Shown: one piece after another, positions 756-6,922 of the stretch
How the letters are laid out: every line of letters starts with the position of its first letter
How positions within the stretch are numbered: position 1 is the first letter of the stretch
Assembly: GCA_913009315.1 (NCBI GenBank)
Contig: CAJVZA010000001.1
Span: forward strand, 1 to 64,000
Source of the DNA: an uncultured Hippea sp.
Lineage (GTDB): Bacteria; Campylobacterota_A; Desulfurellia; JAADFJ01
DNA length: 64,000 bases
Direction of reading: 5' to 3'
Position numbers and translations under genes: made by a program
Notes under the pieces: model-generated
What the model was told of the DNA's origin: nothing
The model's input: the letters and a program-made list of their open reading frames with translations, nothing else
The model's database searches: none

Positions 756-974
756 GGTAAGCTTTCCTTTTCCCGGGAGCTTGCTCGATGCAGATATCGT
801 GAGTAAGAGCGCTTTATCCTTCCTGAATAATCAAATCCGTTACTTCCATTTTGAAAGAAACTATTATCGCGAGGGTGACCCAAAAACTTAAACCGCTGTC
901 AGTTCAATTTATTGCAGCTTATGAGAGATATTTTTTGCATTTTTGCGAATTAATTTGCAAAGATGCGAGTGCTT

Positions 975-1004: not shown

Positions 1005-1084
1005 TTTTTAAGGTACTACTCAATGGAACAACTATTGCTTCTAATGCTAATGAAATAAAAAGAGGGAGAAAAGGAGGTTGGAAG

Positions 1085-1411
1085 ATGAAAACAAAAATGG
1101 CAGATAAGTTTAGCTACATAGGCGGAGGAATAGGTTTAACATTATTTGTAATTTTTGGTCTGCTGCCGGGTTCTTTTATGGGCGGAGCTCTTGGTCTAAG
1201 TTTAGTGGGAGCATTATTCGGTATGCCCGTAGAACCCACTCTCTCATCAGGAATAATAGTCGGAGTGTTTATGCTTATCGGTATATTCATTAGCGGTCTG
1301 CTCTTTATATCTTTCTGTACATTGTTCGGATGGTTGGTTGGTACGGCAGTGGACAGAATTGCGAGACCTAAAAAAAGTGAAAATGAAGTACACGACATTT
1401 TGCAGGTGTAA
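1085..1411 (+). CDS. small glycine-rich membrane protein (paralogue 1)
   Basis: This 108-residue protein has two to three hydrophobic segments rich in Gly (GGGIGLTLFVIFGLLPG, GGALGLSLVGALFGMP, and one ending GWLVGTAVDRI) and a short charged C-terminus. The start at 1085 is chosen because AGGAGG lies at 1072-1077. I do not recognise a named family. The next full gene (1525-1851) is clearly homologous along its whole length, sharing the pattern G-GIG-LF followed by GG--GL-L-G-LFG-PV and G(W)-G--D-I, so the pair is a tandem duplication. Both directly precede the NrfD-like gene and are probably co-transcribed with it. They may be accessory membrane subunits of that redox module, which is inference from position only. 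Confidence 0.7.
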   Translation: MKTKMADKFSYIGGGIGLTLFVIFGLLPGSFMGGALGLSLVGALFGMPVEPTLSSGIIVGVFMLIGIFISGLLFISFCTLFGWLVGTAVDRIARPKKSENEVHDILQV

Positions 1412-1435
1412 TTACCTAACAAGGAGGTGTGGTAT

Positions 1436-1513
1436 ATGAAAAAGGTGAACATCATTTTGAAGAGCGGTTTGTATCTATTGAGAATGTCAAGAACAGGAGC
1501 AATTACAAAATGA
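1436..1513 (+). CDS. possible 25-residue small protein
   Basis: An ATG at 1436 follows a strong ribosome binding site (AAGGAGGTG, about 1421-1429) and opens a frame encoding MKKVNIILKSG and ending in TGA at 1511-1513. That stop overlaps the GAGGAG ribosome binding site of the gene at 1525. The peptide is basic and amphipathic. It could be a translated small protein, a leader coupling translation of the downstream gene, or a relic of an earlier start. No homology is claimed. Confidence 0.3.
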   Translation: MKKVNIILKSGLYLLRMSRTGAITK

Positions 1514-1524
1514 GGAGATCTAAA

Positions 1525-1851
1525 ATGAAACGAACATTTGCTAATAAAGGGCTTTATGTTGGAGCCGGCATAGGTATCAGCTTGTTTGCGCTGGTAGGGA
1601 TTTTATCAGGATTAGCTATAGGAGGTGTTATTGGCTTAAAACTTGCCGGGCTGCTATTTGGAATTCCTGTCAAATTCACACTATTTGCAAGAATTCTTAT
1701 AGCTGTTTCGATGATTGCGGGCGTGATAGGTGCTGCAGCAGTCTTTATACTTGGTGCTGCCATCACAGGATGGATAGCGGGAAGTGTAGCGGATTCAATT
1801 CACAGTGAAAAGGCTGAAACGGTGGAAGATTTACAAGATGTTAAAGCGTAA
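1525..1851 (+). CDS. small glycine-rich membrane protein (paralogue 2)
   Basis: This 108-residue hydrophobic protein has the same architecture as the protein at 1085-1411: a short basic N-terminus, Gly-rich membrane segments (GAGIGISLFALVGILSG, GGVIGLKLAGLLFGIPV) and a GWIAGSVADSI end with an acidic tail. ATG 1525 is preferred because GAGGAG lies at 1512-1517; an upstream in-frame ATG at 1429 has no ribosome binding site and would add unrelated residues. It ends 19 bases before the NrfD-like gene. Function unknown; a structural role in the neighbouring quinol-interacting complex is a guess from gene order and duplication. Confidence 0.7.
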   Translation: MKRTFANKGLYVGAGIGISLFALVGILSGLAIGGVIGLKLAGLLFGIPVKFTLFARILIAVSMIAGVIGAAAVFILGAAITGWIAGSVADSIHSEKAETVEDLQDVKA

Positions 1852-1870
1852 AGCTATCGGGAGATAAAAA

Positions 1871-3145
1871 ATGGCAAAAACTAAAAAGGCGAAAGCAATA
1901 TATATATGGGACGCAGTTCGTTCAATCAACGGATCGGTATTTCGTAATTTGCATGAAGATATTGATAGTTTACTCTCGGGCGGCAAGATTTACTTTTTTC
2001 TCTTAATAATGGGATTCTTAATGGTGTATGCGGCCGGAATGTTTGGTGTCAATGCAGTAAATATGGGATACAGAGAAGCGTACGGTCTTACCAGAGAAGC
2101 TTCATGGGGTCTGCTTATATCTACTTATATTTTCTTTGTTGTTACTTCTACGGGTCTTTGTATAGTTTCGTCTATAGGTCATGTTTTTGGAATAAAGCAA
2201 TTTATGCCAATTGCCACAAGAGCTGTGTTTGTAAGCATTGTAACAATCTTTGCCGGTTTTTCTGTAATGTTATTCGATCTTGATGAACCGCTTCACATGA
2301 TATACTACATGATTACTCCTAATTTAAGCTCAAATATCTGGTGGATGGGAGCTCTTTACGGTGCCTATCTGGTTTTTATGATATTAGAATTTATCTTTCT
2401 GCTGCTGAAAAAGCACAAACCTGCAGCATATCTCGGCCTCACAGCTTTGATTTTCGGAATTTCGGCTCACAGCAATCTCGGTGCAATCTTTGGTATGCTT
2501 CACGGTAGAGATTTCTGGTATGGGCCGTATATGCCAATATATTTTATAGCTTCTGCGATAATGTCAGGGTGCGCCGCCATTGTGATCTTTACGTGGCTTG
2601 GTTATAAAATAAATAACGAAAAGATAGATAAACAAATGGAGAAGGCGCTTCAGTCTGTCGGCAAGCTGGCTGCATTGATGATTGCGATTCTTATCTTTTT
2701 TGAAATATGGAAGGTGCTTACCGGACTTGTAGGAGGTGAAGATAAAAGGCTTGCGATTTTTTCCATGCTTGATGGCCGTTATGCCTTCAACTTTTTAGTA
2801 ATTGAAATTCTTATCGGCATGATAATTCCTTTTATTATATTGATCAAATCACGCTTTATGAATATGAACAAGCTCTTTTATGCCTCAATTTTGATGATAA
2901 TCGGCATATTTTTTATGCGATACGATCTTGTAATGATTGGACAGGTAGTTCCGGTTCTTCACGGAATAAATGTAGAGGAATTTTCGGGATTGGTTAGTTA
3001 TGTTCCCACGATATATGAAATTGCAATTTCCATTGGAGGCTTAGGTATAGCAATTATTGCTTTTCTTTTTGGAGAAAAGGTTTTCAAGGGTCCTTTTAAA
3101 GGCCATAAATTCGGCATAGATCCATTAGAGAAGGTGTGGAAATGA
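1871..3145 (+). CDS. NrfD/PsrC-family integral membrane subunit
   Basis: The product is a 424-residue polytopic protein with about ten hydrophobic segments and no signal peptide. Its pattern (HEDIDSLLSGGKIYFFLL, then GIKQFMPIATRAVF, then SAHSNLGAIFG) fits the NrfD/PsrC/DsrP/HmcC family. These quinol-interacting subunits pass electrons to or from a periplasmic iron-sulfur partner. It is followed, with a 4-base overlap, by a four-cluster ferredoxin-like protein and then by a multiheme cytochrome, the usual partners. No molybdopterin or other catalytic subunit is encoded nearby. This suggests a quinone:cytochrome c electron-transfer module like those in sulfate and metal reducers (compare Geobacter Cbc complexes). 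Direction of electron flow and substrate are not determinable. Confidence 0.85.
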   Translation: MAKTKKAKAIYIWDAVRSINGSVFRNLHEDIDSLLSGGKIYFFLLIMGFLMVYAAGMFGVNAVNMGYREAYGLTREASWGLLISTYIFFVVTSTGLCIVSSIGHVFGIKQFMPIATRAVFVSIVTIFAGFSVMLFDLDEPLHMIYYMITPNLSSNIWWMGALYGAYLVFMILEFIFLLLKKHKPAAYLGLTALIFGISAHSNLGAIFGMLHGRDFWYGPYMPIYFIASAIMSGCAAIVIFTWLGYKINNEKIDKQMEKALQSVGKLAALMIAILIFFEIWKVLTGLVGGEDKRLAIFSMLDGRYAFNFLVIEILIGMIIPFIILIKSRFMNMNKLFYASILMIIGIFFMRYDLVMIGQVVPVLHGINVEEFSGLVSYVPTIYEIAISIGGLGIAIIAFLFGEKVFKGPFKGHKFGIDPLEKVWK

Positions 3146-3870
3146 TTACTAAAATGGAAAGAAGAGAGTTTTTGAAATTAGGTCTGGCAATAACCGGTGT
3201 TTCTGTCGGCGGAGGTTTTCTTTCGGTAGTTTCCAATTTGAAAGGGGCATTTGCCTCAACCGAAGAATATAGAAAAAAATATCCATATAAACCGCATTAT
3301 ACTATGCTTATTAGACAGAATAGATGCATAGATTGCGGAGAGTGTATGAAAGAATGCGTGAAAACAAATAATGTACCCGGATACGGCTACAGGACCACCA
3401 TTCTTGAGAGATATGAAAAAAACGCTATCGGATTGAAAAGAGAATTTATACCTATGTTATGTATGCAGTGCAACAATCCGCCTTGTGTGCGTGCCTGCCC
3501 CGTTGAAGCAACTTATAAGGATAAAAGAACCGGCATTGTGAGGATGCACTATGAAAAATGTATAGGATGCAAGACTTGCATACTGGCATGTCCTTATGAT
3601 GCCAGATACTTTAATGATGAAAGACATGCGATAGACAAGTGCGACTTCTGTTTTGATGCACGACTTTCTAAAGGCATGAAGCTTCCTGCTTGTGCTAAAG
3701 TATGTCCTACAAAGGCAAGAGTTTTTGGTGACCTTTCAAATCCCAATGATGAAGTTTTCAGAATTGTTCATCAGATGCAGAAGGCTGTGTGGGTACTCAG
3801 GCCGGAGGTCGGCACAAAACCCAATGTATTTTATACCACAAGCGATAGAGAGGTTTCAGATGAAAAATAA
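3142..3870 (+). CDS. Tat-exported 4x[4Fe-4S] electron-transfer subunit (DsrO/PsrB-like)
   Basis: The N-terminus has a twin-arginine motif (MERREFLK) followed by a hydrophobic stretch, so the folded protein should be exported by Tat. Four cysteine clusters follow, including CIDCGECMKEC, CMQCNNPPCVRACP, CIGCKTCILACP and a final group beginning CDFC and ending CAKVCP. That makes 16 Cys, enough for four [4Fe-4S] clusters as in PsrB, NrfC and DsrO. The start at 3142 is chosen because ATGA overlaps the NrfD stop and GAGAAGGTG sits just upstream. It should sit at the periplasmic face of the NrfD protein and hand electrons to the hexaheme cytochrome encoded next. Confidence 0.9.
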   Translation: MITKMERREFLKLGLAITGVSVGGGFLSVVSNLKGAFASTEEYRKKYPYKPHYTMLIRQNRCIDCGECMKECVKTNNVPGYGYRTTILERYEKNAIGLKREFIPMLCMQCNNPPCVRACPVEATYKDKRTGIVRMHYEKCIGCKTCILACPYDARYFNDERHAIDKCDFCFDARLSKGMKLPACAKVCPTKARVFGDLSNPNDEVFRIVHQMQKAVWVLRPEVGTKPNVFYTTSDREVSDEK

Positions 3871-4510
3871 GGTAATATTTATGAGTTTCGGTATTTTGAT
3901 CTTTTTTTCAACATTTACGTATGCTGCAGGAAGAAAGATAGTTCCCGGAGACATAATATTTACAGCTCCTGTCAAATCTGTTATATTTAGCCACGAAATT
4001 CATGTAAATAAGGAGCATATTAGCTGTAATATCTGTCATTCCACAATATTTAATACTAGAGCACTAAATCTTCAGAAAAACAAGAATTTTAATATGAAAT
4101 CTTTTTGCAAAGGAAGGTACTGCGGAGTTTGCCATAATGGAAAGATCGCATTTTCAGTCAAGACACAGTGCGCGCGCTGTCATATTGGAGTAAGGGGATT
4201 TGAGCGATCGGATAGAGCTGTAAAGATTCCAAAAATGAGTAGTTTTATGCCTAAAAATGCTTTAAAATTCGGTACTGGAAACTTTGAAGCAGTATTTAGT
4301 CATAAAAAACATATAGGAGTTCACTGCAATAATTGCCATACAAAAATATTTCCGTTTAAATATACTGTAGGCAGCATAACTATGAACGCAATTAAAAACG
4401 GACAATATTGCGGAAAATGTCACAACGGAAAAATTGCCTTTTCAGCAATAAACTGCCTGATATGCCACAGCAAGCTTTCTAAGCAAAACCGACATACCGC
4501 AAAACATTAG
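3860..4510 (+). CDS. periplasmic hexaheme cytochrome c (two c7-type triheme domains)
   Basis: This 216-residue protein has a Sec signal peptide (hydrophobic IFMSFGILIFFSTFTYAA). Six CxxCH motifs are present: CNICH, CGVCH, CARCH, CNNCH, CGKCH and CLICH. They fall into two internal repeats, each starting F-S-H-(E/K)-(I/K)-H and containing C-G-x-C-H-N-G-K-I-A-F-S, so the protein is a duplicated c7-like triheme unit. The start at 3860 overlaps the preceding gene by 11 bases and directly precedes the signal peptide. It should accept electrons from the Fe-S subunit in the periplasm and pass them to an unknown terminal acceptor or enzyme. It is the last gene of the operon. Confidence 0.88.
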   Translation: MKNKVIFMSFGILIFFSTFTYAAGRKIVPGDIIFTAPVKSVIFSHEIHVNKEHISCNICHSTIFNTRALNLQKNKNFNMKSFCKGRYCGVCHNGKIAFSVKTQCARCHIGVRGFERSDRAVKIPKMSSFMPKNALKFGTGNFEAVFSHKKHIGVHCNNCHTKIFPFKYTVGSITMNAIKNGQYCGKCHNGKIAFSAINCLICHSKLSKQNRHTAKH

Positions 4511-4861
4511 AGGTGTATGCAATGGTAATACTATTTTGTTATAGATTTTTCAGAAATTTGGTTCTTTTCCATCTAACATTGCGATTGTGATGATTAAAAT
4601 TTTCCGTTGAGCGTTTTTTTAAAACATCTATGGTAAGATTTCCGCTGCAGTTGTTCCGCATAAACTTATCCGGCCATTATTTCCAATTGCTGCACTTAAA
4701 ACATTGAGTTATGCACCGGTTGTTTGAATGTAGATTTTTTTGTAAAGCGGAGTAAAGTGAAAAATATATAAAATGTGGTAGAATCTCTTTAGAGGACGGG
4801 TCAAATTATACAAAAGGTATGTCAATTTTTGATACAGACTGCAGGTAAATAGAGGTACGTA
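4511..4861. other. 351-bp intergenic region before the sensor kinase
   Basis: No gene or repeat from the dispersed families is seen. The region separates the cytochrome operon from the two-component genes and should contain the kinase promoter. The only candidates are AT-rich and weak (for example TATATA near 4770). No clean -35/-10 pair or sigma-54 element could be assigned. Confidence 0.4.
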
Positions 4862-6922
4862 ATGAAATTCAAGATAACCTTCATAGTATTTATTATCTTA
4901 GTTGTTAGTCTTATCATCACGCTTAATATATTTTTTCAGAAAAGCTATGAAACAGAGATAGCAGGACAGGTTAATAGGCAGCAGCTCCTTATAGCTCGTG
5001 CTGTTTCAGGATCAATTAAAGATTTTATATTTCATACAGAAGACAAAGCAGTTGCCATTGCCAAGCTGATTGGACTGCGCGGAATAAACAGCAAAGGGCT
5101 GTGTAAATTTATTGGATATACCTTTGCTGAACTTCACGAAGAAAGTCCTTTGGAAGTAACAGTATTCAGCAGCAAAGGAGATATCATTGGTTGCTCAAAA
5201 AATAGATTTGATGGTGTTAACATTACAAAATTTTTAATGGCAAAGTTTCGTAGCCTAAAAAGTGGCGGGATACTTTTTCCTGATATGTTAAAGAGAAGCA
5301 AAAATTTATATCTTATCACCCCTATCGTGGATAAAAGCGGCAAATTTGCCGGCGGCCTATTAATTAAAATAAGTATTCATGATATATCTAAAAGGTTTTT
5401 AAAGCCCGTAAAATCAGGGAGGCGCGGTTATGCATGGATGATGAACGGTTATGGTACGCTTTTATATCATCCAACCAAGCCTGAAATGATTGGTAGAAAT
5501 ATATATAAGGCTGACAAATCATGCTATAAATGCCATCAATCGTTCAAGACAGAGAAAGAGATATTAAAAACCAAGGATATTGGCTACAAGACATACATCA
5601 CTCCTTACGGAGAAGATAAACTTGTTGCGTTCTCGAGAATAAAGGTTGTCCGGCCAAACTGGATAGTGTGTGTATCAATCCCATACTCTGAAGTTACTGA
5701 GAATATAAAGCAGAGCATGAAGTTTTATTCCATCCTGATTATTTTTATTTTCTTTGTTACCGGCATAATTGCTCTTATTGTAATAATAATTAACCGAAAG
5801 AGAATAAAGGCAGAGGAAAAATCACTTTATATGGATAAAGTTAAAAAACAGGCAAAAAAACTTGAAAGGTTAGTTTCCGAAAGAACAGTTGAGCTTAGCT
5901 CTGAGAAAGAAAAGCTTCATGCTCTCATAAGTTCAATTCGTGCAGGAATATGCATCTTTGATGATAGCAAAAAGATGATATGGCATAACAAAGTTATGAA
6001 CGACTGGCTTTCAAAAGAAAGGATAAAAAATTTTACTCTTGATTTTTTCAAAGACGGGAGAGATGTCTCAAAGAAAATTTATGATACAAGTTCCGGCAAC
6101 AAACATGTGCAGGAAGTTTTATATCTCGATTTTGGCAATAAAGAGGGCTATTTTCAAATTTCAGCTACTCCTCTATATTTGCCTGATGAGCAGGCAATAT
6201 TGCTTCTTATACAAGATATAACAGATCTCAAAAAGGCAGAAGAGCAGTTGATGCATTCTGAAAAGCTTGCTGCGTTGTCCAGACTTTCTATGGGTGTTGC
6301 GCATGAGATCGGTAATCCATTAACATCAATATCGTCATATGTTCAGATACTTAAGAATATGGATCATAATGATTTCACAAAGGACGCGCTGGAAACCATA
6401 TCTAAACAGATTCAACGAATTGCCACTATTGTCCTGAGAATGTCAGGTTTTTCAAAAAGCAAAACAGCAAAAATAAAATCCTTTGAAGTGAAAAAGCTCA
6501 TTCAATCGACTATTGATATAACCAGGTACGACAGAAGGACAAAGAAAATAGATATACAGATGAATATGCCTGATAACTTGCCGGAGGTATATATAGATGA
6601 AGATCAACTAACGCAGGTTTTTATGAATCTGATACTTAATGCTGCCGATGCGATGCCCGAAGGCGGCAGCCTAATTATAACAGGGCAAAGTAATGATAAG
6701 GAGGTGAGCATATCCTTTAAGGATACCGGCCAGGGTATAGCCAAAAATCATTTGGAAAAAATATTTGAACCATTCTTTACTACAAAGGATAAAGGTACCG
6801 GCCTTGGTCTTGCAGTTAGTTATACTATAGTCAAGAATTATGGCGGCAGAATAGACGTTGAAAGTTCGCCCGATAAAGGAGCAAACTTCATTGTGAGGTT
6901 ACCTATTTATGAAAGTAAATAA
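4862..6922 (+). CDS. membrane sensor histidine kinase with haem-binding (CxxCH) Cache domain
   Basis: Order of parts in the 686 residues: N-terminal membrane helix (about 5-25); periplasmic Cache-type sensor (about 30-285); second membrane helix (about 287-312); coiled coil; PAS-like domain (about 345-460); HisKA with phospho-acceptor His481 in GVAHEIGNPLTS; HATPase with NLILNAADAMPEGG, DTGQGI and GTGLGLAV. The sensor carries CYKCH (Cys221, Cys224, His225), a c-type haem attachment motif. Covalent haem in the periplasmic domain would allow redox, NO or CO sensing. It sits between a multiheme cytochrome operon and a sigma-54 regulator whose start it overlaps by 14 bases. Haem attachment is inferred from the motif, not shown. 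Confidence 0.88.
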   Translation: MKFKITFIVFIILVVSLIITLNIFFQKSYETEIAGQVNRQQLLIARAVSGSIKDFIFHTEDKAVAIAKLIGLRGINSKGLCKFIGYTFAELHEESPLEVTVFSSKGDIIGCSKNRFDGVNITKFLMAKFRSLKSGGILFPDMLKRSKNLYLITPIVDKSGKFAGGLLIKISIHDISKRFLKPVKSGRRGYAWMMNGYGTLLYHPTKPEMIGRNIYKADKSCYKCHQSFKTEKEILKTKDIGYKTYITPYGEDKLVAFSRIKVVRPNWIVCVSIPYSEVTENIKQSMKFYSILIIFIFFVTGIIALIVIIINRKRIKAEEKSLYMDKVKKQAKKLERLVSERTVELSSEKEKLHALISSIRAGICIFDDSKKMIWHNKVMNDWLSKERIKNFTLDFFKDGRDVSKKIYDTSSGNKHVQEVLYLDFGNKEGYFQISATPLYLPDEQAILLLIQDITDLKKAEEQLMHSEKLAALSRLSMGVAHEIGNPLTSISSYVQILKNMDHNDFTKDALETISKQIQRIATIVLRMSGFSKSKTAKIKSFEVKKLIQSTIDITRYDRRTKKIDIQMNMPDNLPEVYIDEDQLTQVFMNLILNAADAMPEGGSLIITGQSNDKEVSISFKDTGQGIAKNHLEKIFEPFFTTKDKGTGLGLAVSYTIVKNYGGRIDVESSPDKGANFIVRLPIYESK

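Follow-up and report, generated by a model that had tools for sequence, protein, structure and literature searches.

Positions 1085 to 8285 of the window, the whole stretch of 64,000 nucleotides analysed here, probably form a redox-sensed quinone:cytochrome c respiratory cassette that is horizontally acquired or transferable. The cassette and the elements upstream of it comprise the following features.

934..949 (+): enhancer-like site 1, TTTGCATTTTTGCGAA, 11/12 match to TTTGCA-N4-TGCAAA, 90 bp before the -24 element
954..969 (+): enhancer-like site 2, TTTGCAAAGATGCGAG, 10/12 match, 70 bp before the -24 element
1024..1039 (+): sigma-54 promoter-like element (-24/-12), TGGAACAACTATTGCT, 61 nt before the SmA ATG
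1085..1411 (+): SmA, 108-aa membrane protein, a Gly-zipper hairpin in a predicted model and of type A (first-position) by type scores (133 vs 79 bits)
1525..1851 (+): SmB, second-position 108-aa paralogue (type scores 107 vs 109 bits)
1871..3145 (+): NrfD/PsrC-family integral membrane quinone subunit, ~10 TM, assigned by PF03916, clade and tree
3142..3870 (+): periplasmic FeS protein with a Tat-type signal (ERREFLK) and four clusters, NrfC/PsrB/TtrB/DsrO-like
3860..4510 (+): hexahaem c7-type cytochrome, 2 x triheme domain, with a signal peptide
4862..6922 (+): histidine kinase, periplasmic dCache domain with CxxCH (haem c)
6909..8285 (+): NtrC-type sigma-54 response regulator, candidate activator of the promoter at 1024

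The window starts at a contig end (G000:C1, 64338 bp), and the genome is 88% complete.

Regarding gene content, the original prediction of an NrfD-FeS-hexaheme unit without a catalytic subunit, following duplicated small membrane proteins, was confirmed: the operon at 1085-4510 has the order SmA-SmB-NrfD-FeS-hexahaem c7, and no catalytic gene follows the cytochrome in the window operon. SmA and SmB are 40% identical over 108 aa (E 3e-23). The NrfD protein matches PF03916 (E 4.6e-30, 105.8 bits vs a cut-off of 25.8), and hydropathy of its orthologue in the sister genome L040 gave ~9-10 TM helices, in line with the 8-10 of the NrfD family. The quinone site of NrfD proteins is marked by a Ser, an acidic residue in TMH2 and a gate-like Arg (PMC8076601). 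In 16/16 clade members S154 (the quinone-site Ser) and R350 are invariant and an Asp or Glu is present in an FDLDEP-type motif (DLxxP), this acidic residue being assigned to TMH2 by motif position and not by structure; judged by these residues, the window NrfD would carry the quinone site of the family. The NrfD and FeS genes overlap by ATGA. PsrB is the nearest solved chain to the FeS protein (2vpw_B, E 5e-40), whose 16 Cys are invariant across 16 orthologues, and the cytochrome carries its six CxxCH motifs in a pair of triheme c7 domains (two stretches matching TIGR04257); its orthologues have 3, 6, 9 or 12 haems.

A generic quinone:cytochrome c link, as had been proposed, is still the best reading of this catalysis-free module; such NrfD modules are already known (CbcSTU, NhcABCD), and it is the surroundings of the window module that are new. 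Geobacter Cbc4 (CbcSTU), a proposed menaquinol:ferricytochrome c oxidoreductase, consists of a cytochrome c, an FeS protein and an NrfD-type protein (PMC11434368) and resembles the window module in gene content, with NrfD, FeS and multihaem c and no separate catalytic subunit, whereas the window module has another gene order and another cytochrome (2 x triheme c7) and has both the SmA/SmB pair and an enhancer-promoter of the conserved sigma-54 type in front of it. The NrfD, FeS and multihaem cytochrome subunits of Qrc (QrcABCD) and Nhc exchange electrons with quinone at the P-side (PMC13059093, PMC8076601), and the window module is likewise built of these three components.

Electron transfer between the quinone pool and the periplasmic multihaem cytochrome is probably the function of the module, as suggested by its sequences, which would also allow the transfer to run inwards. 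The module would then be a Qrc- or Nhc-like cytochrome c:menaquinone reductase that feeds the quinone pool with electrons from a donor cell or from a hydrogenase or formate dehydrogenase in the periplasm, a reading that appears somewhat improbable: the cytochrome has QrcA-like triheme similarity (E 2.5e-5), the NrfD scores similarly to DsrP, HmcC and QrcD, NrfD modules run in both directions (PMC13059093, PMC8076601) and a Mo-type oxidoreductase that has an NrfD-type subunit to itself is encoded separately in the genome (L057), but a QrcB-like subunit is absent from the window and no score reaches the equivalog cut-offs (QrcA 24 vs 180, QrcC 108 vs 400, QrcD 45 vs 570 bits). Scores for DsrMKJOP (DsrP 57 vs 350, DsrO 159 vs 200 bits, with no MKJ in the operon) and for Nrf nitrite reductase (NrfD 34 vs 348, NrfC 171 vs 378 bits) likewise fell short of the cut-offs, and the window cytochrome is a c7 hexahaem protein, not the pentahaem NrfA.

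The CISM enzymes (Psr, Ttr, Sre, Arr) share the NrfD and four-cluster FeS subunits, and among NrfDs of the same class that fall outside the clade, the nearest ones are of the CISM kind, mostly beside Mo oxidoreductases (33-43% identity). Together with the incompleteness of the genome and the AOR-like operon that lies, with a gene for a ferredoxin-like protein, divergently upstream of and outside the operon in sister genome L040, this could indicate a catalytic subunit that is encoded elsewhere and docks on the module as in Psr, Ttr and Nrf. Such docking is nevertheless very unlikely, given that a conserved catalytic gene or operon beside the clade was found in 0/14 Nitrospirota loci, that no molybdopterin catalytic subunit is present in the window, the sister locus or these 14 loci, and that a multihaem c7 cytochrome (3-12 haems) always follows FeS in clade loci.

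The window NrfD belongs to a discrete clade (54-63% identity) found in 14/295 Nitrospirota genomes, in which its members score 429-559 bits and the next match 192 bits. In the NrfD tree, which was built without CbcU or Geobacter reference sequences, the window and L040 proteins are sister to L220 at 99/99 and nested in the Nitrospirota clade at 100/100; L220 shares the gene order of the window and likewise has a 6-haem cytochrome. Two small-protein genes followed by NrfD, FeS and cytochrome genes were detected in ten Nitrospirota loci, a few of them having a single small copy or a small extra ORF, and in L189 this order, with one extra 113-aa ORF before NrfD, is followed co-directionally by a histidine kinase and a response regulator. 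The cassette thus seems to have moved from Nitrospirota into a Campylobacterota genome with its own redox-sensing switch and small-protein pair, which documents cross-phylum transfer of a respiratory cassette together with regulatory DNA. A Nitrospirota contig put into a Campylobacterota bin would also account for the Nitrospirota-like NrfD, kinase, regulator and promoter, but this is extremely improbable: atpD on the same 64-kb contig is 93-99% identical to that of its own genus, 73-77% to the class and 69-73% to Nitrospirota, and another species of the genus carries a syntenic locus on a contig of 51 kb. Misbinning was rejected on the atpD of the window contig, by which the host contig is judged native.

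Regarding regulation, the first reading of this DNA had overlooked the sigma-54 promoter at 1024-1039, the two enhancer-like sites at 934-969 and the kinase/regulator pair at 4862-8285. The elements of a sigma-54/bEBP operon were all detected, namely a -24/-12 element, upstream enhancer-like sites, a bEBP with a sigma-54 interaction domain and, in the window genome, a gene encoding RpoN (rpoN). The sigma-54 element is kept in the sister genome L040, 54 nt before the ATG, and in the wider family it lies before the first copy in 83/98 cases, before the second copy in 3/78 and before 20/1223 control genes. Phased palindromes of the form TTTGCA-N4-TGCAAA lie upstream in 76/98 cases vs 59/1208 controls, the motif having been derived from the very loci, related to one another, in which it was then counted, which makes the p-values look stronger than they are, and the spacing of the enhancer-like sites is conserved across loci. 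The composite pattern of enhancer-like site and -24/-12 element matches the window at G000:C1:954-1038 and was found in 38/295 Nitrospirota genomes (~70 matches vs one for the reversed pattern); matches in genomes other than those of Nitrospirota and the window genus seem to be due to chance, and the palindrome is absent from Tectomicrobia, Myxococcota and G383-group loci. It is this shared control that unites the small-protein pairs across loci. A TTG-extended ORF start is present in the window at 851, upstream of the SmA ATG.

The CxxCH of the kinase is kept in 17/17 orthologues, and the regulator shares 60% identity over 450 aa with the one encoded beside a Nitrospirota CbcBA-like locus (L081). 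The regulator may act on the sites at 934-969, a pairing suggested by co-location and by transfer as a unit. In the mechanism proposed, the kinase would sense the periplasmic redox state or a substrate through covalent haem in its periplasmic Cache domain and phosphorylate the NtrC-type regulator, which would bind the paired TTTGCA-N4-TGCAAA-like sites and switch on RNA polymerase-sigma-54 at 1024-1039. The resulting transcript would supply SmA, SmB, NrfD, the Tat-exported four-cluster FeS protein and the hexahaem cytochrome; NrfD would bind (mena)quinol at a P-side site, the FeS protein would relay electrons and the cytochrome would hand them on to acceptors in the periplasm, unless the flow is reversed as in Qrc, while SmA and SmB would act as long Gly-zipper membrane hairpins co-induced with two unrelated kinds of quinone:cytochrome modules. 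The composite of upstream sites and -24/-12 element serves as a sequence handle with which the genes controlled by a haem-sensing two-component system could be listed in uncultivated anaerobes.

The small proteins had been expected to be tied to this NrfD clade, which was borne out for the clade itself: they lie directly before the clade NrfD in 11/13 resolvable Nitrospirota loci and both Campylobacterota loci, and two clade members (L218 and L219) are without them. The family as a whole is far wider, being present in 69/295 sampled Nitrospirota genomes with up to 7 copies per genome, and adjoins NrfD in only 15/94 resolvable family loci; in 22/94 the pair precedes CbcBA-like cytochrome b/heptahaem modules, which are unrelated to NrfD modules, and in 47/94 it stands alone without a module. 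The CbcBA-like modules of Nitrospirota follow the same small-protein pairs, promoter and kinase/regulator and have a b-type cytochrome in place of NrfD-FeS, a non-homologous replacement. Because the same pair precedes CbcBA-like modules or stands alone, SmA/SmB is not a dedicated NrfD subunit, and the suggestion that the small proteins are new NrfD subunits is largely refuted, the family survey rejecting it as a general rule. In the window operon itself they could still belong to the NrfD-FeS-cytochrome complex as stoichiometric subunits proper, for instance by forming a quinone entry site or by anchoring the cytochrome, which is soluble and lacks a membrane anchor; their position before clade NrfDs, the single transcription unit and the first- and second-position types distinguishable across loci agree with this, but the two clade members without them, the placement of most family members elsewhere and the multiple copies per genome make it unlikely. 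Most likely, and as a best guess, SmA and SmB would not be redox subunits but would have a generic accessory or organising role in the membrane; a quinone module is missing from the neighbourhood of roughly half of the small-protein loci, so what they do may have nothing to do with this complex.

More tentatively, SmA/SmB may represent an undescribed family of sigma-54-induced Gly-zipper hairpins. In Nitrospirota and their relatives these hairpins would be general partners in the export (or import) of electrons by quinone:cytochrome c modules, organising or stabilising the membrane domains in which quinol dehydrogenases of the NrfD-FeS or cytochrome b type can replace one another, and the sensor-promoter-hairpin-dehydrogenase cassette would move between phyla as a unit. 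The family, otherwise an orphan, is tied to a single conserved enhancer-promoter architecture and to quinone:cytochrome c modules of two interchangeable kinds, and the role of the hairpins is now directly testable by deletion in a tractable relative. Phage-shock proteins, which are small inner-membrane proteins driven by sigma-54, offer an analogy only: there too a sigma-54 activator induces small membrane proteins while cells respire, and no sequence relation was found.

Regarding the identity of the family, no Pfam, NCBIfam or PDB match above cut-off and no Foldseek match in PDB with E <= 0.001 was obtained, a literature search found nothing relevant, and a scan of viral contigs for close relatives confirmed none that would point to a viral origin. 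Oleosin was matched by 5/107 family members (best E 3e-4) and read as composition, and a match in a Hippea-like genome (L036) was rejected as lying inside a CdsA-like protein. A two-copy fused protein from Tectomicrobia, modelled for the packing of the pair, gave a pLDDT of 77 and a pTM of 0.52, and no claim is based on it; the match of L061 to the family was weak (8.4e-6).

Inspection of the beginning of the 64,338-bp contig G000:C1, which constitutes the window and belongs to a Campylobacterota MAG (class probably Desulfurellia), revealed a cassette of co-directional genes preceded by promoter-like elements:

934-969, two near-palindromes
1024-1039, -24/-12 element
1085-1411, +, small membrane paralogue 1 (SmA), 108 aa
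1525-1851, +, small membrane paralogue 2 (SmB), 108 aa
1871-3145, +, NrfD-family protein
3142-3870, +, Tat-type FeS protein, ATGA overlap with NrfD
3860-4510, +, hexahaem cytochrome, two triheme c7 domains
4862-6922, +, histidine kinase, 351 bp after the cytochrome gene
6909-8285, +, NtrC-type regulator, after the kinase

The original observation of an NrfD-FeS-hexahaem module without catalytic subunit was borne out, as neither the window operon nor the sister locus L040, from a second species of the genus, encodes such a subunit. An AOR-like operon lies upstream of L040 in divergent orientation; no such AOR-like neighbour was seen at Nitrospirota loci. Catalysis-free NrfD modules are not new, since Geobacter Cbc4/CbcSTU (PMC11434368) and a nine-haem complex (PMC8076601) have already been described. 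The closest solved relative of the FeS protein is PsrB, and its 16 Cys are kept in 16/16 orthologues. Between one and four triheme c7 units, giving 3, 6, 9 or 12 haems, are found in the cytochromes at this operon position (L134, L142, L163, L176, L220 and window 3860-4510). Solo NrfD genes with no FeS or catalytic partner nearby were also observed in two genomes of the window's class (L051:8059-9240 and L052:8562-9743).

Regarding origin, close relatives of the window NrfD (429-559 bits, 54-63% identity) were found in 14/295 sampled Nitrospirota genomes, the next match in that sample dropping to 192 bits, while NrfDs from the window's own class, most of them part of Mo-enzyme operons, reach only about 32-43% identity. 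In a tree, the window and sister-species NrfDs are nested within the Nitrospirota clade (100/100), adjoining L220 (99/99). The regulator and kinase are 60 and 41% identical end to end to the pair beside the Nitrospirota locus L081, and atpD on the window contig is native. The simplest reading of these comparisons is that the whole cassette was laterally acquired.

Co-occurrence of the small proteins with this NrfD clade, originally suggested as a check, held in part: one or two lie 5' of NrfD in 11/13 resolvable Nitrospirota loci of the clade (excluding L221, cut by a contig end), but not in L218 and L219. Conversely, among 94 small-protein loci with resolvable context, 15 are directly 5' of NrfD, 22 are 5' of a cytochrome b/heptahaem (CbcBA-like) module, 10 adjoin a multihaem cytochrome only and 47 have none of these neighbours, neighbourhoods being under-sampled as many contigs end or carry 100-N gaps at small-protein genes; only 6/238 control genes from the same regions sit 5' of such a module. 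Several Nitrospirota contigs (L279, L280, L282, L283, L285, L292 and others) end or gap right after the composite promoter described below, at the small-protein gene start, and contigs of a single genome in some cases share the same promoter sequence, which suggests that near-identical multi-copy small-protein units break assemblies. Operons for FeS-NrfD-molybdopterin oxidoreductases, whose NrfD is a different one, can likewise have small Gly-zipper proteins at their 5' side, as at L191 and at L058:4582-10513, the latter also containing genes for a slipin-like protein and a cytochrome with 6 haems.

The small proteins, which share 40% identity in the window, matched no Pfam family; members occur in 69/295 sampled Nitrospirota genomes, mostly as tandem pairs and in up to seven copies, with relatives in Tectomicrobia, Myxococcota and the G383 phylum. 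First- and second-position copies are separable types (held-out copies rightly assigned in 32/33 and 25/33 cases); by this typing SmA is clearly first-type, and SmB is undecided. AlphaFold2 models SmA (pLDDT 82, pTM 0.61) as a hairpin whose two helices span ~42 residues each, with Gly mostly every four residues; a fold search gave no match, and the great length of these hydrophobic helices may be an artefact of how Gly/Pro-rich segments are modelled. Many Nitrospirota loci (L081:14876-15130, L289:3704-3991 and similar) have a further membrane protein of 84-97 aa encoded 3' of the regulator, without SmA/SmB profile match.

A -24/-12 element (TGG[ACT]A[CT]N6TGC[ACT], within 250 nt of the gene start) precedes 83/98 first copies, most often by about 50-57 nt, compared with 3/78 second copies and 20/1223 control genes, and TTTGCA-N4-TGCAAA palindromes, found and counted in the same locus set, lie upstream in 76/98 loci against 59/1208 controls; as loci share descent, Fisher p-values are overstated. 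More independent support for the palindrome is provided by the reversed-pattern control (one match, against about 70 for the composite of palindrome and promoter, which occurs in 38/295 Nitrospirota genomes) and by palindrome-to--24 spacings clustering near 59, 79 and 89 bp, a pattern that activator sites in helical phase would be expected to give. Resolvable composites mostly lead to a small-protein gene and in few cases to a CbcBA-like module or other genes; at L188 one also precedes the kinase. The palindrome is absent from Tectomicrobia, Myxococcota and G383-group loci, some still having the -24/-12 element. One composite directly precedes a 403-aa protein with an N-terminal small-protein domain (L288:1476-2687). 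A second match in the window genome, which encodes RpoN, has a perfect palindrome just 5' of a sigma-54 activator-like gene (L298:1284-1370, G000:C31), possibly by chance.

The CxxCH in the periplasmic Cache domain of 17/17 kinase orthologues suggests a haem-c sensor, which would act through the NtrC-type regulator, the palindrome and sigma-54 on expression of the small pair and quinone module. NrfD would exchange electrons with (mena)quinone on the P-side, its conserved Ser154, acidic residue and Arg350 being assigned to the quinone site following PMC8076601, and the FeS protein would relay electrons to the c7 cytochrome, or perhaps from it, as in Qrc, where the direction is cytochrome-to-quinone (PMC13059093). 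In the weakest step of this scheme, a generic membrane role of the small hairpins (assembly, organisation, stress protection) appears likelier than that of a redox subunit, since they are common to two non-homologous quinone modules and also found alone. Downstream of the cassette (window 8456-15335) are a PhoB-PhoR-type response regulator/kinase pair and, after it, a pst phosphate transport operon.
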